Origin: a virus
Virus record (IMG/VR): IMGVR_UViG_3300025030_000425
Span: 1-23,011 of that record
Strand: one strand, 5' to 3'
DNA: 23,011 nt
The notes beneath the pieces are model-generated. The model was not told where the DNA came from and searched no databases. It worked only from the letters and a program-made list of their open reading frames with translations. The position numbers and the translations under genes were made by a program. Positions 2 to 10,760 of this stretch are shown one piece after another (positions within the stretch are counted from its first letter, which is position 1; every line of letters begins with the position of its first letter).

Positions 2-502
2 CCTTTTGTAAAAACATATGGAAAGCTGTTTGATCAAAGCATGGTAGCGATTCACTCATCTTGGGAAATCTGTCCTCACGACGAAATCCCCAAGCAACTC
101 CACCGCTATTCAGCAAAATTCATCTGTGATCGTGGAGTCAGTCATGAGTTGGTAAGACACAGGCCATGTTCGTTTGCTCAGGAGAGCACGAGGTATGTAA
201 ATTATGGTGGTAAGGATATGGAGTTTATTGAGCCAACTGGGTTTGAGGATTGGGATTGGTTTGCTCAAAGCATGTTTTGTACATTATGTGAAAATGCAGA
301 GGATACGTATAAACAGCTTCTCGAAGAAAATCTCAAGCCCCAACAAGCCCGAGCAGTTCTGCCCAATGCCCTGAAGACTGAGATCGTAGTCACAGCAGAT
401 GCAACTGAATGGTCACATATCAGAAAGCTACGTACAGCTAAAGCAGCTCATCCTGATATGCAGCGAGTAATGAATATGATGCCTTGGGAAAGTTTTCTAT
501 GA
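2..502 (+). CDS. thyX: FAD-dependent thymidylate synthase ThyX (5' end outside window)
   Basis: Converts dUMP to dTMP using methylenetetrahydrofolate, FAD and NAD(P)H, supplying thymidylate for phage DNA synthesis in the cytoplasm. The frame is open from the left edge, so the N-terminus is missing; the ATG at 41 is internal, because the residues before it (PFVKTYGKLFDQS) read as ordinary ThyX sequence. The signature is ELVRHRPCSFAQESTRY, matching RHRxxSxxxxSxRY, where the Arg/His/Ser residues bind substrate and flavin. It uses AQE where the textbook motif has NEx; a QESTRY variant is, from memory, common in phage and Firmicute ThyX. The C-terminal part (VLPNALKTEIVVTADATEW, then RKLRTAKAAHPDM) fits the family's last helices, including the AHP/AQP turn. 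It ends 96 nt before the next + gene. The family assignment is secure; the true start cannot be seen. Confidence 0.93.
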   Translation, partial: PFVKTYGKLFDQSMVAIHSSWEICPHDEIPKQLHRYSAKFICDRGVSHELVRHRPCSFAQESTRYVNYGGKDMEFIEPTGFEDWDWFAQSMFCTLCENAEDTYKQLLEENLKPQQARAVLPNALKTEIVVTADATEWSHIRKLRTAKAAHPDMQRVMNMMPWESFL

Positions 503-596
503 AAAGCGGGTGGCCTTTATATACTAGTATGCGTTTATTTGGGTAGGCTAACTCGTGTTTTTTGTAGTGTTTTCAAAGGGTTATCGGGATTTTAAA

Positions 597-647
597 GGTT
601 GAAATTTTTCGACCAAAGGCACCAAAAAAGGTTGAAATTTTTCCACC
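597..647. repeat. Tandem pair of 18-bp near-palindromes, possible operator or iterons
   Basis: GGTTGAAATTTTTCGACC at 597-614 and GGTTGAAATTTTTCCACC at 630-647 differ at one base and start 33 bp apart, close to three helical turns. Each is an inverted repeat: GGTTGAAA pairs with TTTCGACC or TTTCCACC around a TT centre, with one non-Watson-Crick pair. They overlap the proposed TTG start of the winged-helix gene and 33 is a multiple of three, so the frame is kept. This layout is typical of a dimeric regulator bound to two sites on the same DNA face, or of replication iterons. Binding is inferred. Confidence 0.6.
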
Positions 648-1195
648 ACTATGGTAAAATCCCTTATAGTGAAGTTCCGATAAACCTTTTCACCTCATTT
701 ATTATGGAAGAAAATCACTTAGCAAAAACAATCAGTTTCTATTCAAACGATAATTCCATCTACAAAGTAACTAGGCAATCCATAGCTAAGGAAAACTATG
801 CTCCGTTTGGAATGATCGGACCATATAGAAGAAACAATTCAAGGAAAACATACATGGATATCTTTGACCTAATCTTGTCTGTGCCAAGAGCCACAGGACT
901 TTTATTCAATGAGATCAAAGAAAACTCTGATCCAGAACTTGGGATTGCTGTGATGAGGCAATTTGAAAGTTATGACAAGTCTAAGATGGGCACAACTTAT
1001 CAAAGGCTGGCAGCATTGCAAAAGGCAGGATTAATTAGAAAGATTATTCCATTTGAACTTCCTGTAGAAGAATTAAGCCAACTAAAGACTCCATTTATAA
1101 CGCCTGAAAAGTTTTCCTATATGATAAATCCCCACCTGTTAAAGCCTTATAAATATTCGTTGGCTGTACAGATTTGGGACTTACTGCAGAGTTAA
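599..1195 (+). CDS. Winged-helix-like DNA-binding protein, possibly a replication or transcription regulator
   Basis: 198 residues from a TTG that follows an in-frame TAA by one codon. A Shine-Dalgarno-like AAAGG abuts the TTG with no spacer, so the start is uncertain; the first in-frame ATG is at 704, which would give 163 residues. Residues about 131-150 (TTYQRLAALQKAGLIRKI) look like the recognition helix and wing entry of a winged-helix fold. The end (YMINPHLLKPYKYSLAVQIW) resembles the MINPxLxxPxK tail that I associate with plasmid and phage replication or maintenance proteins of the RepL/RepA winged-helix kind. That comparison is from memory and not proven. The N-terminus is basic and carries an 11-codon duplication (KFFD then KFFH) produced by the palindromic repeats in the DNA. 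It lies downstream of thyX and converges on the structural operon. A DNA-binding role is likely; the process it serves is unknown. Confidence 0.6.
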   Translation: MKFFDQRHQKRLKFFHHYGKIPYSEVPINLFTSFIMEENHLAKTISFYSNDNSIYKVTRQSIAKENYAPFGMIGPYRRNNSRKTYMDIFDLILSVPRATGLLFNEIKENSDPELGIAVMRQFESYDKSKMGTTYQRLAALQKAGLIRKIIPFELPVEELSQLKTPFITPEKFSYMINPHLLKPYKYSLAVQIWDLLQS

Positions 1196-1200
1196 AACAA

Positions 1201-1234
1201 AGCCAGAACCTACGTTAATTTGTAAGTTCTGGCT
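1201..1234. terminator. Bidirectional intrinsic terminator between convergent genes
   Basis: A 9-bp perfect stem, AGCCAGAAC (1201-1209) with GTTCTGGCT (1226-1234), continues inward through a C/A mismatch into TAC/GTA and an 8-nt loop. On the + strand it is followed by CTTCATTTTTA. On the - strand it is followed by TTGTTTT. It sits in the 47-nt gap between the stop of the winged-helix gene (1195) and the stop of the giant - strand gene (1243), where both transcription units should end. Confidence 0.85.
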
Positions 1235-1242
1235 CTTCATTT

Positions 1243-4200
1243 TTATTGCCCCATATCTGTAACTTCAAAATATCTTTTCAATATCATTTCCCGTTGCTGC
1301 TGCAACTGCCCAAGCCTTTCCCGAACATTTGTTGTCTGATCAATCTTTTTCAACTTATTAATTACTGCCTGGTTCCGGTTGAGAGCACTTTGAAAATTTT
1401 CATGCAACTTCATTTGCTTGAACCCATCCAGGTTTGAGTTCAAGAAAGTTCTCTTATCTTCAGAGTTTTCGAGCTGTCTCTTGAATAGCGTTACCTCCTT
1501 TCCAACCTTACTAAACTCTTGCTCGTTACCACTCTTCTTATAGTCAGCTCCTCTTCCCCAATGCCAATAATACAACTTACCCATCCCTGGTATAGATTCA
1601 ATTATTCTAGCATGATTAAAGTTCATTGTATCACCAGCTATATAATTGTCATAAGTTTCTCCTACATCCTTAGTAGCAGAATTAAAAAATCTAAATGGAG
1701 GCATTAATTGACTAGCAATTCCACTGCCTATACCTTCTTGACTAACTTTAGTTCTAATATATCTAGAAGCGCCACCAAGAACTAAGAAATTCTCAATTAC
1801 ATTATCACTAAACTTTGTTTCTTTCCCCAGCATCCAATCTTTAATCTCATCCGCACCAGCATTGGCAAGTACTAATAAACTTGCCAGCTTAATCATATTA
1901 GTTATACCTTCAATAATTTGTGCTTTATTACTCTCATTATATCCGTTTTCTTGAGCATTCATATAACCATTCTTCATATTGTGCCAAGCTTCTCTACGGA
2001 AGACATCAAACTGTTGAATAGTATATGTCTTGAGCATATAAGCTACTCTACCGTTTCCACCATTTAAGTATGGTGTAGGCATTGAAGATAAAGCAACCGG
2101 ATGAAAGTCCAACACTTTATGATACAGTAACATCTTTACATTATCACTCGGGTTGTTTGATAGCAAATCATTAATTACTGACTCTGAGGAAGGCCCAAAA
2201 ATTGGCTTAAGCTGTGTCATTAATTTTGCCCTTCCTGCATCTGAACTAGCCATTTGTTTATAGCGATCATGAGCTACGTTAATTAATGTCTCTTTGCCGA
2301 TTGAATCCATTTTTTCAAGACCAACTTTTCTAAAAACCCAACTGACTGCATTGCTTAAAGTAGTTCCATCTGCAAATTCTTGAGCTATTCGATCTAGGTA
2401 TAGATCTTCTTTTGTAATTTCTGATCCACCAAATAGTTTCTTAGTAGTTTTAAATTGTCCACTTGTAGCTTTTGCAGCATTTTTAATATAGTTAGCCAGT
2501 CCTTTAGGTGTCCAGACTTGAGCTACATACATCGCCCAAGCATGATCACCAATCTGTGTTACAGCTGCTAATGGCGATCCCAATACATCAATGTAAGATG
2601 CATTCTTAAAGGCAGTAACTAAGCCAGTTGTTCCATGCTCGTTAAATCTAGCATGTAGAATCTCCTTAACCATATGTTCATGATCTTGATTTAATTCTCC
2701 TGATAAGATTTTTTCTGTTACATATGCTCCAATATTTTCAGTATAATCGCGATCTTGATATTTGTATTCATCTAAAATTTGTTCGATTTGAATTATTTCT
2801 CCAGACAAATCATCTATTGTCTTATTAGCTATAGCTGCTTCTGCTGGATTAATATCACGTGCATTTTTAGCAACCAATTCCAGTTCTCTAATTCTTGCTT
2901 CTTTACGTGACCTATCTGCCTTAAGGCCAGCTATTCTCGGAGGAACTTTTCCAAAGAATTTTCTAGCTTCTATTTTTTTAGTCATGCTATAGATATAGCT
3001 CATTAATGCTGCATTACTATCCATGTAAAACTGAGCTAAATCTTTATCAACAATATCATACTTTCTTGCTTGAATGTTGCCTGGTCCTCCAATACCAAAA
3101 CCAGGATTAAGAATTTTATGACTAATCAAATCTGCTGCTCTTTCTGGGTAGTTACGAATAAAGTTTTCTTTATCCAATCCAATCTTTGCAGCTTCCTTAT
3201 CTAAAAGATTACTAAATTCTGGTTGGTTAGATATCTCTTTAGTGGCTTGTAAAAATCCAGCAACATCTTTAATTATTCGTGGCCAATATTCTTCTATATA
3301 GCCAACTTTATAACCTACATCTTCAGCATTTTTATGTATTTGATCTAAAACTTTTCTAACTTCTTGCCATTCATTAATCATATTATATTTAGTGGCTAGC
3401 TTTTCAATCTTAATTTTATCTGCTGATTGCGTAGCTTCATTCCAAATAAATTGATCTTCTTTACTCATTAACTTAATTTTTTCTAGCAATGGATGTGCTG
3501 CTTTAAGGGCATGAGTAATTTCTCTGGCTGTTTTAATGTCTATGTTTCTATACTCCATTGCAAGTTGCTTATCTACATTTAACAATCTTGTATAGGATGA
3601 TCCTCCAAATTTATCTATAAACTGCTTAACTTCACTAGCCCTCATGTGAAGAGTCTTTCCGATTCTACGAACTATATTATTCTTATCTTTATATCGTTGT
3701 TGATATTCCTCATCGCTAATCTTCTGCACTGGGGTTTCACGAACCTCGAACATAGGCATACCTTCACGGAGTGCCTTAGATTTCATGCGGTTCGTGATTG
3801 GAATAGATAATGCATCAAAAAATATATTATCTCCTGCATGATAAGCACTTGTATCTACTTCGATTGATGTAGTTTCAACTCTTGCATTACCCCACTTGTT
3901 CTTATTGAACTCTGCATTAAAAGTATTCGGGAGTATTTTATCATAAAATTCTTGCATCCCATGAAGTCTTTTAGCCTTTTCTTCTTCAGTGCCTTGAGCG
4001 TAACGATCAAACTGTTGCTGCCCAGTAGTCCATGCAATCTTATCAAAACCATTCTCAGCAGCATACCTGACCATTCGCTTCATGGCAAGTAGTGACCATT
4101 GAGTGGAGTTCTTGAATGGCGCATTGGGAACACCCATTAGCATTTCATTATCTTGATACCATTTCTTTTCTTCTTCAGTAAGTTTTTCTCCGGATAATAT

Positions 4201-7200
4201 TTTTGCATCTAGCTCTTTAAATCGTTTATCTAACAGTTCTTTATAACCTATTTCTCTTCCTGCCTGATGCCAATCACTTTGAATCTCTTCAATAAACAAA
4301 ACCTTTTGTAATTCTCCTACCCCAAACGAAGAAGCAGATTTTTCACCAGCTGCAACAGCTCTACGATCTTCTTCACGTAAATCATTAAGAGTTTTAATAA
4401 CTTCTCGTTCATTGAACCTGATATGAACTAAAGGATTTACAACACCAGGCCAATGAACTTCATGAGTATAAGTACTTTTATCTTGCCTTGCTGGTAAAGT
4501 TAATATTAATTCTTTATAATTCTTTCCTCCAGGAAGTTGATAATTTTCATGTTCTGTGGCAACTCCTGATGTTTTTGGTAAAGATTCTTCATTAATTAAA
4601 CTATTATATTCATCTTGTTCATCAACAGATAAATTACCAGTTTCTCGTAACTTATTATCAAGCTCATCTAATCTTCGTTCTTTATCTACAGTCCAACCTT
4701 TAACAACTTCTTCAAGCTGAATATTATTCTCCTGAACAAACTTCAACAATTCTGCCTGGCTAACTTTTCCTTCCTGTTTATCAAGCCAATCATATAAACC
4801 AACCCAATCAAGTTCATCCTGCTTAATTCCTGGAAAGTTCTTAATCATTCCTTTCCATTGATCAGGTGTTGCTTGCTTCTGGTTAAATCCAGCAACTGCA
4901 TTCTCAAGTGCTGAGTACCATTTGTTTGCTACTTCTTCAGCCTGAGGAACAGTAACTTGAACAGTTTGTCCATTAACTTGACGCTCATAAATCTTTCCAC
5001 TTTCTACTTCACGAGCCAGGCCAGAAACAGTCTGCTTGCCAAAACTTAGCAATTGCTGAAAAAAGTCCATTACTCGTTGAATCACTTTACCGAAAGCAGT
5101 GTTTCTGTATTCAGCTCTGTTGACCATAATCTGAGCAAACATGTTCGCACGATTTTCAACCATCCTTTGCTTCGGGTCTTTGTGAGTACTCAGGGCAAAA
5201 TCAAGCTTACCTGCTTTACGAAGTTTATTAAACTCCTTATTCAAAGCACTATTATCTGCTTCTGTAACCAATCCTAAGTTGTCAAGGACATGCTTGTTCT
5301 CATGCCAAAGAGTCTTATTGTCTGCAAAGTTCTGGTCTAGAAGAATTTCATTCCCTATTGTAATTCCAAGGATCTTTCCATCCTTTGACATCTGGCCAGT
5401 TTCAATTGCTAACTTAATGAGGTCTTGTCCAGCAGCCTGAATGCTATTGATTGTTAAGCCTTGACCATTTTTGAACTGAACAAATACTGAACCATTTTCA
5501 TGCTGAGTGATTGTTTGATTTGGAAAAGCTTTCTTAATATCTTCAAGATTTACTTTGGTTAAGGCATCTTGATTTTCAGTTGCTTGAAACTGTGTAACAC
5601 TACCTACTTGCCGTTCATTAGTGAACCCACTCGGCAAACCTCCTGGCAAGTTTCTAGGAATCTCAGGTTCAACTGCCTGTCTATTTGCTATCTGAACATC
5701 TCCGAGATCTTTAGCAATTTGTTGAAACCATACTTGTCGTTTATTTTGTTCAGTTAAAGACGGAACAACATTTTGTTTTGCTTCACTTTGAGCTGCTGTA
5801 TCACTTTTGACATTACCTTCAATATTAGCAAGTTGTGTCTCAAAGAATTTCTTCCTCATAAATGCTTCTGTCCCAGGAGTCATTTCTTCCTGGCGAAGAT
5901 TCAATTCCTTTTTAACGCCCTGCCAATAATTTTCAATAACCTTTCTTTCTTCAGGAGTAAAACTGTTGTTTATATAGGCCTTTACATAATTTACATAATC
6001 TTCAATCTGTCTTAGATTATGTTCTTCTTCAGGAGTTCTTGAAGATACCTGATCATTTAAAGCTGATTGCTCTTGAGACTTATTTGCAATTATTTGATTT
6101 GCATAATCAGCTATAGATTTTGGAACTATTTCACTTGCTATAATTTGTGCAGATTCAGCAGCATCTTTTTCAAGCCCAACCTTCTCTCCTACATTTACTG
6201 TTCCGAAAAGTTCTTCAAGATACTTCTGCCTATCTTCTCTAGTAGTGTATGGAGCAAAAGCCTTCTTAACTTCAGGCAGTTCTTTATCAAGTAACTCATT
6301 ACGCCGTTTGTTTAATTGAATAAGTTTATCTTCAATTACTTTTCTTTCTTCTGCACTTGGTGAAGTTTTAGCATCTAATGAATACGGATCAAACTTTTTA
6401 TTATATTGATCAGAGAGAGTTGTAATCTCATTATCAATATTTGTAATCCTTTCATTAAGTTGGCTTGCAGATTCATACCTGTGAGTAGCTAACTTATCTT
6501 CAATTTCTTTTACTTCCTTCTCTTCAGGAGAAAGTGCTTCATACTCTTTCTTAGCAAGTTCTTCTTTCTTCTGAATTCCAGAATTAATCCGATCCAGGAG
6601 GCTTTGATTATTTTTATTTTCCTCAAGAGTCTTTCTGATTAATTCAGCCGGATCAACATTTTCTTCTCTTGCTTTTGTTTCAAGTTTATCAAGATCATTA
6701 ATGAGTTCTTGATTCGACTTAATATTTTCATTTAAAGTTTGAACACTCTTACCAAGTTCATCCTCTTTCAAATTGAGAATATTTGCTGCTCTTCTGTCAA
6801 GTTCTAATTCTTGCTCAGTCTTTTCAGCTGTCTTATTTACTCCTGGAAGTAAATTTGCCCCAGCTCCCATTACTCCGCCAAGAATAATAGCTTGTGCAGC
6901 TCCTTCAGGAACTCCATCCAGCAAAGGCTTATCAAGAGCTGCATTAGTAAATATTGTCTCCTGAACAGTTTGTGGTAATTCCTCAAATACACCCTCAGTT
7001 ATACCACCACCAATAATAGATTTCACAACACCTTTAAATCCTTCCTTCTTAGCAGGATTTAATCCAGAAACTATCATTGTATCAATATCAGCAAAACCAA
7101 GTTTCTTAGCTAACGATCCACCGACTAGACCAAAAGCTGCTGTTCCTAATCCTGATGCTGCTGCAAGTGCAGATTGTTCAGCAGTCAAAAGATCATTAGG

Positions 7201-7755
7201 CGTAGCATTTCTTATTTGCTCTGCAGTTTGTCCAGCAGATATTGCACCCTCACCAACTGATCCAGCAGCAATAGTCGATCCTGTTTTGCCTAATGCAGTT
7301 ACAGCCTTTGGTAATATTTTGCTACTAAGCGCAAGAGCACCACGCCCCAACACACCACCAGCAGCAACAGATGGCAATGTCTCAACAATACCATGAGCAA
7401 TAGTACTTGGATTTTCCAACATTGCTTGTGCTGTATCAGCAAAGCCTTTTGCCGCATCAACCTTTTTATTTGCCTCTTGTTGTGCTGGAGAATATTCTTC
7501 AGAAAGATCTTTCTGCCATTCTTCTGGTTTTATCCCAATGGATTCAAGTCCACGACCAACTCTACCACCAGTTGGAATATCAGCAAGGCCTACAATTCCT
7601 TGGCCTGCCCCAATAACACCTTTAGCAAGAGATATACCAGTGTCTTTTAATGTAGAACCTAAAGTACGTTCAGGCACAGGATTATCGAAAGAATCAAACT
7701 GAGCATAAGGATCTTCTTCTGCATCATCAAACTGATCGTAAGGATTTATATCCAT
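1243..7755 (-). CDS. Giant polyvalent phage protein (2170 aa) with zincin motif; probable ejected internal virion protein
   Basis: The last gene of the operon. It starts at ATG 7755 behind AAGGA, 36 nt after the previous gene. Residues 1-30 are acidic with a doubled PYxQFD motif, a pattern seen at the start of other large phage ejection proteins. Residues ~35-310 contain Gly/Ala-rich hydrophobic segments that could enter or form a channel in the host membrane, and ~310-450 are coiled coil. A zinc metallopeptidase motif HENKH (H818, E819, H822) is followed by VENRANMFA with E867, the HExxH...ExxAxxFA layout of IrrE-like zincins. Around 1156-1164, EEIQSDWHQ is the hallmark of a domain found in large polyvalent phage proteins. 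The C-terminal third is helical, with hydrophobic stretches at ~1715-1745 and ~1935-1970. It is probably packaged and injected with the DNA, where it may aid passage and cleave a host protein. No transglycosylase motif was recognised. The gene is certain; ejection and protease activity are inferred. Confidence 0.85.
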   Translation of the reverse strand: MDINPYDQFDDAEEDPYAQFDSFDNPVPERTLGSTLKDTGISLAKGVIGAGQGIVGLADIPTGGRVGRGLESIGIKPEEWQKDLSEEYSPAQQEANKKVDAAKGFADTAQAMLENPSTIAHGIVETLPSVAAGGVLGRGALALSSKILPKAVTALGKTGSTIAAGSVGEGAISAGQTAEQIRNATPNDLLTAEQSALAAASGLGTAAFGLVGGSLAKKLGFADIDTMIVSGLNPAKKEGFKGVVKSIIGGGITEGVFEELPQTVQETIFTNAALDKPLLDGVPEGAAQAIILGGVMGAGANLLPGVNKTAEKTEQELELDRRAANILNLKEDELGKSVQTLNENIKSNQELINDLDKLETKAREENVDPAELIRKTLEENKNNQSLLDRINSGIQKKEELAKKEYEALSPEEKEVKEIEDKLATHRYESASQLNERITNIDNEITTLSDQYNKKFDPYSLDAKTSPSAEERKVIEDKLIQLNKRRNELLDKELPEVKKAFAPYTTREDRQKYLEELFGTVNVGEKVGLEKDAAESAQIIASEIVPKSIADYANQIIANKSQEQSALNDQVSSRTPEEEHNLRQIEDYVNYVKAYINNSFTPEERKVIENYWQGVKKELNLRQEEMTPGTEAFMRKKFFETQLANIEGNVKSDTAAQSEAKQNVVPSLTEQNKRQVWFQQIAKDLGDVQIANRQAVEPEIPRNLPGGLPSGFTNERQVGSVTQFQATENQDALTKVNLEDIKKAFPNQTITQHENGSVFVQFKNGQGLTINSIQAAGQDLIKLAIETGQMSKDGKILGITIGNEILLDQNFADNKTLWHENKHVLDNLGLVTEADNSALNKEFNKLRKAGKLDFALSTHKDPKQRMVENRANMFAQIMVNRAEYRNTAFGKVIQRVMDFFQQLLSFGKQTVSGLAREVESGKIYERQVNGQTVQVTVPQAEEVANKWYSALENAVAGFNQKQATPDQWKGMIKNFPGIKQDELDWVGLYDWLDKQEGKVSQAELLKFVQENNIQLEEVVKGWTVDKERRLDELDNKLRETGNLSVDEQDEYNSLINEESLPKTSGVATEHENYQLPGGKNYKELILTLPARQDKSTYTHEVHWPGVVNPLVHIRFNEREVIKTLNDLREEDRRAVAAGEKSASSFGVGELQKVLFIEEIQSDWHQAGREIGYKELLDKRFKELDAKILSGEKLTEEEKKWYQDNEMLMGVPNAPFKNSTQWSLLAMKRMVRYAAENGFDKIAWTTGQQQFDRYAQGTEEEKAKRLHGMQEFYDKILPNTFNAEFNKNKWGNARVETTSIEVDTSAYHAGDNIFFDALSIPITNRMKSKALREGMPMFEVRETPVQKISDEEYQQRYKDKNNIVRRIGKTLHMRASEVKQFIDKFGGSSYTRLLNVDKQLAMEYRNIDIKTAREITHALKAAHPLLEKIKLMSKEDQFIWNEATQSADKIKIEKLATKYNMINEWQEVRKVLDQIHKNAEDVGYKVGYIEEYWPRIIKDVAGFLQATKEISNQPEFSNLLDKEAAKIGLDKENFIRNYPERAADLISHKILNPGFGIGGPGNIQARKYDIVDKDLAQFYMDSNAALMSYIYSMTKKIEARKFFGKVPPRIAGLKADRSRKEARIRELELVAKNARDINPAEAAIANKTIDDLSGEIIQIEQILDEYKYQDRDYTENIGAYVTEKILSGELNQDHEHMVKEILHARFNEHGTTGLVTAFKNASYIDVLGSPLAAVTQIGDHAWAMYVAQVWTPKGLANYIKNAAKATSGQFKTTKKLFGGSEITKEDLYLDRIAQEFADGTTLSNAVSWVFRKVGLEKMDSIGKETLINVAHDRYKQMASSDAGRAKLMTQLKPIFGPSSESVINDLLSNNPSDNVKMLLYHKVLDFHPVALSSMPTPYLNGGNGRVAYMLKTYTIQQFDVFRREAWHNMKNGYMNAQENGYNESNKAQIIEGITNMIKLASLLVLANAGADEIKDWMLGKETKFSDNVIENFLVLGGASRYIRTKVSQEGIGSGIASQLMPPFRFFNSATKDVGETYDNYIAGDTMNFNHARIIESIPGMGKLYYWHWGRGADYKKSGNEQEFSKVGKEVTLFKRQLENSEDKRTFLNSNLDGFKQMKLHENFQSALNRNQAVINKLKKIDQTTNVRERLGQLQQQREMILKRYFEVTDMGQ

Positions 7756-7791: not shown

Positions 7792-8868
7792 TTATTTACC
7801 TTCTGCCCAAGATGGTAAATACTTATATCTTGCTTTAAACTTAGCGGCTGTTTGAGGATTATTTCGTAAGTAAGCAAGTGCAGGATGATTTTCTGGAAGT
7901 TCCCTTGGTTGCTCAAGTTGCTCTGGTGATCCATCAACATATCCAGTCTCGTCAGCATTTGGCATTAGAAGTCTTTGTCTTTTAGTATTTCCAGTAGGAT
8001 CAATAGGATCAGATTCCTCAATTATCATAGGCTTTAATCTAGCTTCTTTAATCGGAGGATTCTGCAATACCTCTCCTTGAATAACACGTAACTTATTTTC
8101 TGCAATAACTCCTTGCTCATCAATACGATTTTTATCTTTATCTATAATAAATCGCTGTCTTTGTTCTTCAAGATTAGCTAAATTATTTTCTCTTGATTGC
8201 TGATTAGATAAATCTTGTATCATAAGATCCTTACGTGTTCTCCATCCCATAGGAGGTGCAGGAGTATTATCAATCTTAGTAACACCAAAATTCTGCCCTC
8301 GCGGAGTGTTCATATACTTTTCATATTGTGCCATCTGTCCAGTCGGAGCAACAGGATTTTTTAAGAATCTTTTCCTTGCTTCAGGAGATACACTAGAATC
8401 AAATGACACATCCATGTTTGACATTTGTCCTTGATTTGTTCCAGCCAGCCTGCTTAATGCTCTAGTAGGTTTTTCTCCTTCAAATGAAAGAGTATTTCCA
8501 CCAATATCATAAGTGGTTGTATTTCCATTTTTTGCTACAGTCATTGCTCCTAACTCTGCATCTCTTTGTGCATTAGAAGTTTCATTAATCTTAGGACCTT
8601 CAATACTTACTGAAGGTAACATATTTCTTTCAACTATTCTAGTTCCTTGCCCAATTCTATCAGGACGAGAGTTAATATTTTTTAACGGATTACTTCCACC
8701 ATAGAATGATTCATTCATTGGATCACCAGGAGTCATTGGTGCTTGCTTTTTTATATGTGCAGGAACATTATAAGCTTCACCTGTAAATGCTTCATCCGTA
8801 GTAGGAAGAAGAGCCAACTTTCTTTTTTTCTTCTCTTCTTCAGCTGCTGTTTGAAAATCATTAAGCAT
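7792..8868 (-). CDS. Disordered, Gln/Asn-rich phage structural-region protein (358 aa), function unknown
   Basis: Polar protein rich in Gln, Asn, Pro and charged residues, with almost no hydrophobic core sequence, so probably largely disordered. Two charged helical stretches stand out: AAEEEKKKRKLALLP near the N-terminus and about residues 225-265 (QSRENNLANLEEQRQRFIID). The C-terminus (LRNNPQTAAKFKARYKYLP) looks like a short folded or binding segment. Two starts are possible. ATG 8874 overlaps the previous stop as ATGA but has the AAGGAG almost touching it. ATG 8868 has AAGGAG at a normal 7-nt spacing and is preferred. It lies between a propeller-like protein and the giant ejection protein, where podophage-like genomes often encode small internal virion proteins or scaffolds. 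That role is a guess from position; no family was recognised. Confidence 0.75.
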   Translation of the reverse strand: MLNDFQTAAEEEKKKRKLALLPTTDEAFTGEAYNVPAHIKKQAPMTPGDPMNESFYGGSNPLKNINSRPDRIGQGTRIVERNMLPSVSIEGPKINETSNAQRDAELGAMTVAKNGNTTTYDIGGNTLSFEGEKPTRALSRLAGTNQGQMSNMDVSFDSSVSPEARKRFLKNPVAPTGQMAQYEKYMNTPRGQNFGVTKIDNTPAPPMGWRTRKDLMIQDLSNQQSRENNLANLEEQRQRFIIDKDKNRIDEQGVIAENKLRVIQGEVLQNPPIKEARLKPMIIEESDPIDPTGNTKRQRLLMPNADETGYVDGSPEQLEQPRELPENHPALAYLRNNPQTAAKFKARYKYLPSWAEGK

Positions 8869-8870
8869 AA

Positions 8871-10760
8871 TCATTCTCCTTGAGTATAAATTGTTTTCTT
8901 AATAATTTTATTTGTTTGCGTCCAGAGTGGTGAATCGTAATCTCCTTCACTTGGTGTTGAGATAGTTGCTGTCACGGTAGTCGTATTAACAGTAACATCA
9001 TCGTGCCAAGTAAACTCATATCCTGGTGTTCCTTCACCTTCTCCAGGATCTTGATGTACAGGAATATTTGCTTGATCATCATAAATTGACAAAGTCGGAT
9101 TAGTAAATACCAACCCCATTTGATTACCAATAAAGCCACCACTACCAGGAAGCTTAGCTGTAAGTGGAGACTTATCAGCAATTATTGATCCAGCAAAATA
9201 AATATCGGCACCTACAGTTCTAATTGCTCTAGGAATGACTCCTGTATTTCCAGCAACTTGTGATTGAGTAAGTTCAAGGGCCATGTGTTTTTTCCAAAGA
9301 ACATCTCCTGCTTGTGGTGCTAATGGATTAACAGAATCAGACTTTTGGAACTTAATTATATATGCACCCCATCCATCAGTTCCATTGGGAAAACTAGGGA
9401 AAATAATATACACTCCATCGAAAGCAACATCTAACTGAGTAACACAAAGAAGCGCATCAGCATCATCATAGTATTGCACTTCTGCAAATCTTTGCCATTG
9501 CAATGCTCCAGCAGAAGATACTTTAGAAAAATGAAAATGCCACCAACCACTATCAGTAGCAATTTCAATCTTTGCCATTGAAACACAGTAAATATCTCCA
9601 TTGCTGTCAATAGCACATCCTCTGATGCTCAGTCCGCTCATGCTGGTGCCAACACCATACCAACCGTAAAGTCCATTCGCTTGCAAGAACCTTCCTTCAA
9701 GAACTCGATGCCACTGAACAACTCCACTACTATTAAGTTTAGTTAATAGTCCCATCGGATGAATCGAGCTAGTCGTAGACTCTTGAATACTTCCACCTAT
9801 AACAATGTCTCCTGTAGACTTAACAGCAACATCATATGGATTAACCATATTCTGTACAGTCGGATCACCAAACTCATCAAGCAAACAATCACCAAGTTGT
9901 AGAGTCCATCCTAGTGTACCATCGTATTGCAAAGAAGCAACATAAGCAGCATTATAAATTAAAGTATAACTTTCATCATAGGCATCATGCCTGCCAATTA
10001 CTACTGCATTACCAGCAGCATCAGCATCAACGCCCCAACTGAACAAATCATCAATTCCAGTAGTGCCAAGAGAAAATCGTTTCTTCCACTTAATTGTTAC
10101 ACCGTCTGAAGCATATTTAATCAGACTCATATCGTAGCAATTATCATCTCGCAACTTATAAATATCTGCTGTGACATAAACACCACCATAATCAGTATCA
10201 AGTTCAGTCGGAACAGTCGGGTCAATTGCAACTCCAGTTCCTGACTCATTACGATTCACTCCACTTAACAATCCACCTTCCAATACTCGACGGCGTTGAA
10301 ACAATCCATCATTATTATAATATTGTACGTATGCTTCATTTGATAATTCTGACGAAGCATCTGTAAAATCTCTTGTTCTAGTATAACCAACTACAATTAC
10401 GTTACCAATTGGATCAACATCAATATCTGATAATCCACCTCCTGATATAAGAGTCTCTGTAGTATCTATAGAAACTGCTATGGCATACCAATACCATTCA
10501 TAAAGCTCTTTGATTGTTACTGGTTTACTAAACTTCTTTTCAACTAAAGGTGTGACATGAACCCTTGCTTCATCAAATCCAAAGACAGATCGAGCCTCAA
10601 TGGTCACACCCGGAGCTACAGGTACAAATCGCCTGCCTTGTTTAAGTCCAAGTCGAGCCATATCGTCTTTCAGCATACCGACTTGAACTCTCGCTTGCTT
10701 GGCAAAATTCTTACCAGTAAAAATATCTCCAGTATATGTTATCTTAATAGGAACTGTCAT
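8871..10760 (-). CDS. Beta-propeller-like virion protein with SBBP/WD-like repeats (629 aa)
   Basis: Contains many repeats of the form GxxxDxxGNxxVxGY...YxxxGxxxWxxxL, for example DIDVDPIGNVIVVGYT, GVDADAAGNAVVIGRH, DVAVKSTGDIVIGG and GCAIDSNGDIYCVS, each followed by a strand ending in LQW, VQW or IKW. This is the pattern of SBBP-type beta-propeller blades; about six or seven blades span residues ~105-540. The N-terminus (1-75) is a short basic domain that may attach to the particle, and the tail (~570-629) is a Thr-rich beta-segment. It starts at ATG 10760 within ATGA, overlapping the previous stop, so translation is probably coupled. Beta-propellers occur in phage tail and fibre-tip proteins. 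A surface structural role fits the neighbours, but the ligand is unknown. Confidence 0.75.
   Translation of the reverse strand: MTVPIKITYTGDIFTGKNFAKQARVQVGMLKDDMARLGLKQGRRFVPVAPGVTIEARSVFGFDEARVHVTPLVEKKFSKPVTIKELYEWYWYAIAVSIDTTETLISGGGLSDIDVDPIGNVIVVGYTRTRDFTDASSELSNEAYVQYYNNDGLFQRRRVLEGGLLSGVNRNESGTGVAIDPTVPTELDTDYGGVYVTADIYKLRDDNCYDMSLIKYASDGVTIKWKKRFSLGTTGIDDLFSWGVDADAAGNAVVIGRHDAYDESYTLIYNAAYVASLQYDGTLGWTLQLGDCLLDEFGDPTVQNMVNPYDVAVKSTGDIVIGGSIQESTTSSIHPMGLLTKLNSSGVVQWHRVLEGRFLQANGLYGWYGVGTSMSGLSIRGCAIDSNGDIYCVSMAKIEIATDSGWWHFHFSKVSSAGALQWQRFAEVQYYDDADALLCVTQLDVAFDGVYIIFPSFPNGTDGWGAYIIKFQKSDSVNPLAPQAGDVLWKKHMALELTQSQVAGNTGVIPRAIRTVGADIYFAGSIIADKSPLTAKLPGSGGFIGNQMGLVFTNPTLSIYDDQANIPVHQDPGEGEGTPGYEFTWHDDVTVNTTTVTATISTPSEGDYDSPLWTQTNKIIKKTIYTQGE

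Follow-up and report, generated by a model that had tools for sequence, protein, structure and literature searches.

Paired putative operators at the promoter of a small phage gene in an apparently mobile accessory cassette

Operators of the lambdoid Cro/CI type consist of multiple dyads on a promoter that are bound by dimers of the gene products, and PadR repressors commonly bind promoter dyads, including those at their own promoters. In anti-CRISPR operons, Aca autorepressors rely on an inverted repeat inside the core promoter, with the helix-turn-helix (HTH) protein repressing its own promoter; several Aca families carry a similar second inverted repeat upstream or downstream of the core promoter (PMC9410906). 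The MarR-type cyanophage protein pMarR turns on a host gene through a site that lies downstream of where transcription begins (PMC9692554). Here, we describe two palindromes that form a conserved pair of putative protein-binding sites, one overlapping the promoter that serves a small phage gene and the other immediately 5' of it (Table 1). The locus lies in a 23,011-bp stretch of viral DNA (IMG/VR: IMGVR_UViG_3300025030_000425), hereafter the window, which in an end-to-end alignment (99.97%) corresponds to positions 59296-36286 of IMGVR_UViG_3300024999_000008, a near-identical complete phage genome of 68,416 bp with a 127-bp direct terminal repeat.

Table 1. Features of the locus, in window coordinates.
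Feature	Position	Strand	Description
thyX (3' part)	41..502	+	Thy1, E=2.6e-30; gene adjoining the cassette insertion
Accessory cassette (control region and gene)	505..1192	+	~690 bp between thyX stop codon and thyX terminator; empty site in L060 and L109
Conserved non-coding element	509..596	+	88 bp, upstream of the operators; found only with the cassette
Operator 1 (O1), putative site	597..614	+	Imperfect 18-bp dyad GGTTGAAATTTTTCGACC; centred at ~-61 relative to the inferred start of transcription
Operator 2 (O2), putative site	630..647	+	Imperfect 18-bp dyad GGTTGAAATTTTTCCACC; centre ~-28, overlaps the -35 box
-35 hexamer TTGAAA	632..637	+	Inside the right-hand dyad (O2)
Extended -10, TGG-TAAAAT (TGGTAAAAT)	652..660	+	17 bp after the -35; conserved in homologous control regions
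163-aa protein gene	704..1195	+	Probable winged-helix DNA-binding protein; alpha-alpha-beta-alpha-beta-beta-alpha over ~residues 53-161
Terminator hairpin	1199..1236		Directly follows thyX in cassette-free relatives; now ends the cassette gene

The initial annotation placed the two palindromes exactly 33 bp apart, and this was borne out: GGTTGAAATTTTTCGACC and GGTTGAAATTTTTCCACC are the sole matches in the window at up to three mismatches (shuffle mean, 0.07). Its description of each copy as an inverted repeat holds for the dyad symmetry in both, although that symmetry is imperfect, at seven of nine base pairs per copy. The full repeat unit is a 22-bp direct repeat (594-615 and 627-648, 95% identical) that contains both 18-bp dyads. 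When dyad symmetry and similarity at a spacing of 30-36 bp were combined into a pair score and compared with dinucleotide shuffles of the same 100 bp, one of 1000 shuffles matched the score of the window pair. The proposed search for further 18-mers, carried out on the complete 68,416-bp genome of the near-identical phage, returned only a single chance-like match with three mismatches. A looser operator pattern was not clearly more frequent than its reversed control, and neither the rest of the complete 68.4-kb genome nor the cassette-free relatives contained a comparable dyad pair. This absence of other operator copies from the genome is as expected for a self-contained circuit. One pattern match in another virus (L009) fell in an unrelated repetitive stretch and was dropped.

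To compare the control region across phages, we searched viral contigs and locally scanned 77 loci that had been retrieved via the neighboring DUF3987-type helicase. The homologs share 31-96% identity with the window protein: L004, 96%; L005 and L019 (clade B), 52%; L079, 48%; the two copies in L080, 37-38%; and L083, 31%. With the -35 box as the alignment register, O1 starts 35 bp before the -35 hexamer in the window and in L004, L005, L019, L079, and L083, and this placement is also seen in L080b, whose O1 is a 16-bp dyad. O2 lies 33 bp beyond O1 in the relatives and 31 bp beyond it in L079, so that L004, L005, L019, L079, and L083 each have two dyads 31-33 bp apart. Shuffle p values for the pair score were 0.1% for the window, 0.9% for L005, 0.4% for L019, 0.1% for L079, and 2.1% for L083. 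The weaker dyads of L080b (GGTAAATAAAATAACC and AGGGTTGACAAAAAGACCCT) gave a score reached in 17% of shuffles, which is not significant. Between the window and clade B, 13-14 of 18 positions are identical in O1 and 15 of 18 in O2 (72-83%), whereas the spacer between the sites retains 4-5 of 15, which is chance level, at unchanged length. Conserved sites around a drifting spacer of fixed length amount to a phylogenetic footprint that covers both sites as well as their helical phase.

Two of the more distant relatives have a half-site that is altered in both copies together (AGTGT; GGTA/GGTT). Both sites of L079 are AGTGT/ACACT dyads (ACTGTAAAAATTTACACT and AGTGTTGACTTTTACACT), and those of L083 are GGTAGAATAAATCGTACC and GGTTGACAAAATCATACC. 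The start of the predicted recognition helix (residues 92-107) reads MGTT in clades A and B, which have GGTTGA sites; MENI in L079, with AGTGT in both sites; and QGAL/QGVI in L083/L080b, with GGTA, GGTT, and GGGT half-sites. This parallel change of helix and half-site, which comprises three independent states only, favors the linked protein as the putative binder. We also ran a promoter-anchored two-dyad scan over 2.3 Mb on both strands, with thresholds set after the sites had been seen. Such pairs were found upstream of the cassette gene, and the other hits (one site shared by L055, L062, L067, and L069, plus L088) were AT-rich and chance-like. The locus therefore has what marks an autoregulated factor, namely dyads at its own promoter that are conserved in homologs and change together with the protein, weakly so in L080b. 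The L080 contig carries two tandem paralogs of the cassette protein (8317-8772 and 9005-9517), with a perfect inverted repeat, TTACACTAA-10-TTAGTGTAA, between them (8825-8852). The first is located directly behind the exonuclease gene without its own operator or promoter, and the start of its recognition helix resembles that of L079 (MSNI/MENI).

The -35 hexamer within the second palindrome had gone unnoticed by the earlier reader. Together with the extended -10, it forms a sigma70-type promoter (TTGAAA-17-TGGTAAAAT) with 10 of 12 consensus matches and a TG before the second hexamer, ranking among the best-scoring plus-strand candidates in the first 20 kb. A promoter scan across the window found no excess of candidates over shuffles, and the match alone is therefore weak; the case for a promoter at O2 comes from the -35/-10 layout being conserved in homologous control regions. 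A TTGA(A/C)(A/T) -35 with an exact 17-bp spacer to a -10-like hexamer occupies the same place in all seven of the homologous control regions found. Because the -35 of a good promoter falls in the right-hand dyad, transcription would begin near 667 and translation at ATG 704, and because the promoter overlaps the second palindrome, both palindromes would lie upstream of the transcription start. The repeats are promoter DNA, neither coding nor leader, contrary to the earlier suggestion that they form a leader.

The relatives likewise point to ATG 704, and not TTG 599, as the true start codon, as the initial annotation had allowed. The reading frame 5' of the ATG-704 equivalent is closed after three codons in L005, L019, L080b, and L083 and after 12 codons in L079. 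In L004 it is closed 17 codons 5' of the ATG, i.e., downstream of the repeats. We reject the TTG start because of these closed frames. In clade B genes, AAGGA precedes the ATG. Rfam returned no RNA element over threshold, and a leader-RNA hairpin in the window scored no better than shuffles. As a separate observation, the mRNA leaders of L083 (7392-7424) and L080 (8969-9004) have a short hairpin (AAGGATT...AATCCTT) ending right at the ATG, which would hide the ribosome-binding site; its folding is only slightly better than that of shuffles.

The 163-aa gene product is probably a winged-helix DNA-binding protein, judging from its predicted structure. An AlphaFold2 model built from eight sequences reached a pTM of 0.51, with pLDDT values of 64-80 for residues 51-80 and 54-76 for residues 81-120. 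Overall confidence is middling and residues 1-51 are of low confidence, but the core is usable, as opposed to a three-sequence model with a pLDDT of 34. The core runs H53-58, H62-73, E81-84, H92-107, E111-116, wing, E137-141, and H148-161, which is the winged-helix order. A topology like that of PadR proteins, in which a winged helix is joined by a C-terminal dimerization helix, is seen in this medium-confidence model, and the weak structural matches span many winged-helix families. VIA-align gave weak matches (Z 4.4-5.7), largely to winged-helix proteins (CodY, pPS10 RepA WH1, LexA, and ArsR types) mixed with unrelated NB-ARC-type entries, none of them decisive. Foldseek found nothing at E<=0.001 for the model. 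Z scores of 4.4-5.7 are common by chance, and a winged helix is therefore likely, not proven.

Sequence profiles did not place the protein in a family. The PadR profile (PF03551) scored 15.2 bits (E=0.022) against the window protein, short of the curated cut-off of 27 bits; it matched two of eight members of the cassette protein's family, at best with a sub-threshold E=0.0045, and reached 15.9 bits genome-wide, also below the cut-off. PHROGs, NCBIfam, PADLOC, and PDB sequence searches yielded no convincing match, and no homologs were found in the annotated phages, bacterial genomes, or plasmids searched. The family matches no curated family above cut-off, and its 50 N-terminal residues are without assignment. 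The original label of a winged-helix-like protein is thus weakly supported by the model and fold matches, without a family above cut-off.

Gene and control region constitute a cleanly inserted accessory cassette that appears to move among related phages. In L060 and L109, whose flank is 91% identical, the thyX terminator, AACAAAATTGCCAGAACC, comes immediately after the thyX stop codon. The two are separated in the window by ~690 bp (about 505 to 1192), so the cassette gene took over the terminator. L035 is without the cassette that its relative L019 has behind the exonuclease gene. Among 51 related loci spanning the exonuclease and the large late gene, a count that includes some near-duplicates, the cassette is present in six and absent from 45. 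In L005, L019, L080, and L083 it follows the exonuclease gene; in L079 it follows a small ORF a short way past that gene; and in the window and L004 it sits at the early/late junction. Five of these phage records yielded no tyrosine integrase (PF00589). In L004, a diverged ThyX-like protein (3155-3790; weak Thy1, E=0.0017) replaces thyX before the cassette. The giant late protein (2170-2381 aa; L004 4539-11684, homologous to window 1243-7755) has swapped-in segments between relatives, and the L004 version carries an ADP-ribosyltransferase domain of polyvalent proteins (ART-PolyVal, E=4.4e-22).

Autoregulation, one of two functions first suggested for the palindromes, is now the leading idea: the conserved promoter/operator layout and the parallel change of site and helix argue for it. 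We think it probable that a dimeric winged-helix protein cooperatively represses its own gene through O1 and O2, and that this circuit moves as a cassette. A dimer on O2 would cover the -35 box and exclude RNA polymerase. It would be stabilized cooperatively by another dimer bound to O1, which lies 33 bp or 3.1 turns upstream on the same face, and the gene would shut itself off once enough protein accumulates. The whole unit of upstream element, operators, promoter, and gene would travel as an accessory cassette among related phages. The sites, promoter match, conserved layout, parallel site change, exclusive linkage to the gene, and clean insertion are observed; from these we infer the linked protein as the binder, repression by binding, and cooperativity.

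Several other readings were weighed against cooperative autorepression. A frame open from TTG 599 in the window, with the TTG inside the first copy and the frame-preserving 33-bp offset, would allow the repeats to encode a duplicated peptide (RLKFF.H) or to act as leader RNA. The frame is closed in L004, L005, L019, L079, L080b, and L083, and a promoter sits inside the second repeat; the coding version is refuted by the closed frames, and the reading as a whole is almost certainly wrong. The other function first suggested, iterons of a replication origin with the protein as initiator, draws on the winged-helix fold, the AT-rich flanks, and a weak structural match to the plasmid pPS10 RepA WH1 dimer (1hkq; Z 5.6, rmsd 3.3, 82 residues). 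Against it, there are only two copies per genome, placed exactly on the promoter and none elsewhere, and the cassette sits at the cumulative GC-skew maximum, not the minimum. The RepL profile (PF05732) had no match at E<=1 in G001, G004, and G005. The cassette is accessory, with 45 of 51 related loci lacking it despite having the replication genes in common, and its position shifts between clades, all of which argues against an origin of replication. We consider iterons very improbable and rejected an iteron-type Rep origin, as the repeats are neither several nor kept in relatives as a replication need implies.

More weight falls on readings that retain the operators. Phage genes controlled by host repressors are well known, and O1 and O2 could serve a host repressor or another phage protein with the adjacent gene merely as target; binding by the gene's own product is, after all, only inferred. 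However, the pair occurs only with the cassette gene and is absent from cassette-free relatives sharing the remaining early genes, and both half-sites vary in parallel with the recognition helix predicted for the linked protein, which makes a different regulator rather unlikely. Positive or biphasic autoregulation, in which a dimer on O1 activates before later filling of O2 over the -35 represses, is unlikely yet plausible. O1, centered at ~-61, stands at the usual distance of a classic class I activator, which would allow activation at low dose, and its position relative to the -35 is identical in L004, L005, L019, L079, and L083, but a near-consensus promoter with an extended -10 (10 of 12) should need no activator. 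It is also conceivable, though quite unlikely, that the protein is bifunctional, its winged helix capping its own expression via O1/O2 while it acts on the host, either in counter-defense, in the manner of fused Acr-Aca proteins, or by regulating host genes. Cassette shuffling would then select for rapid co-divergence of operator and recognition helix, which would keep co-infecting phages from silencing each other.

Simple autorepression does not account for the 88-bp element at 509-596, whose conservation exceeds what two operators explain. In ungapped comparison with clade B, 40 of 60 and 41 of 60 positions are identical, and a profile of the element matches cassette loci only. No consensus RNA fold was found for it. 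Perfect inverted repeats occur in only some members, clade B having one (ACAGCCTAAA-27-TTTAGGCTGT in L005). The element may contain an activator site or further weak sites.

Together, these findings add a probable winged-helix family and its predicted operator, without a confident match in Pfam, PHROGs, or NCBIfam and without a tblastn match to the cassette protein in the phage or plasmid records searched. The natural series of GGTTGA, AGTGT, and GGTA-type sites, in which half-site and predicted recognition helix appear to co-change, offers a handle on how repressor specificity diverges, and the clean empty site points to a cassette slipping in behind a stop codon and borrowing its neighbor's terminator. 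The locus shares multiple dyads on a promoter with lambdoid Cro/CI systems but has a single unidirectional promoter with two sites separated by three turns and lacks a divergent partner gene, and no tyrosine integrase was detected in five of these phage records. With PadR it shares, in the model, a winged-helix topology with a C-terminal helix, while its profile match is far below the curated cut-off. Like pMarR, the protein would be a phage-encoded, promoter-acting winged-helix regulator; unlike those of pMarR, its sites lie on and upstream of the -35 box of the phage gene's own promoter. Membership in Aca, defined by an HTH gene downstream of acr in one operon, was rejected, since the window holds a single-gene unit between thyX and the terminator. 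In contrast to Aca operons, no acr-like partner gene is on the transcript in the window and the former thyX terminator follows the gene, which encodes a 163-aa protein with a probable winged helix in place of a classical HTH and is not positioned behind an acr gene. In common with Aca, it is a compact mobile-element unit with its own promoter; its repeats lie inside the core promoter and 5' of it, where the linked protein would bind, and a gene that switches itself off through paired operators is a familiar kind of circuit.
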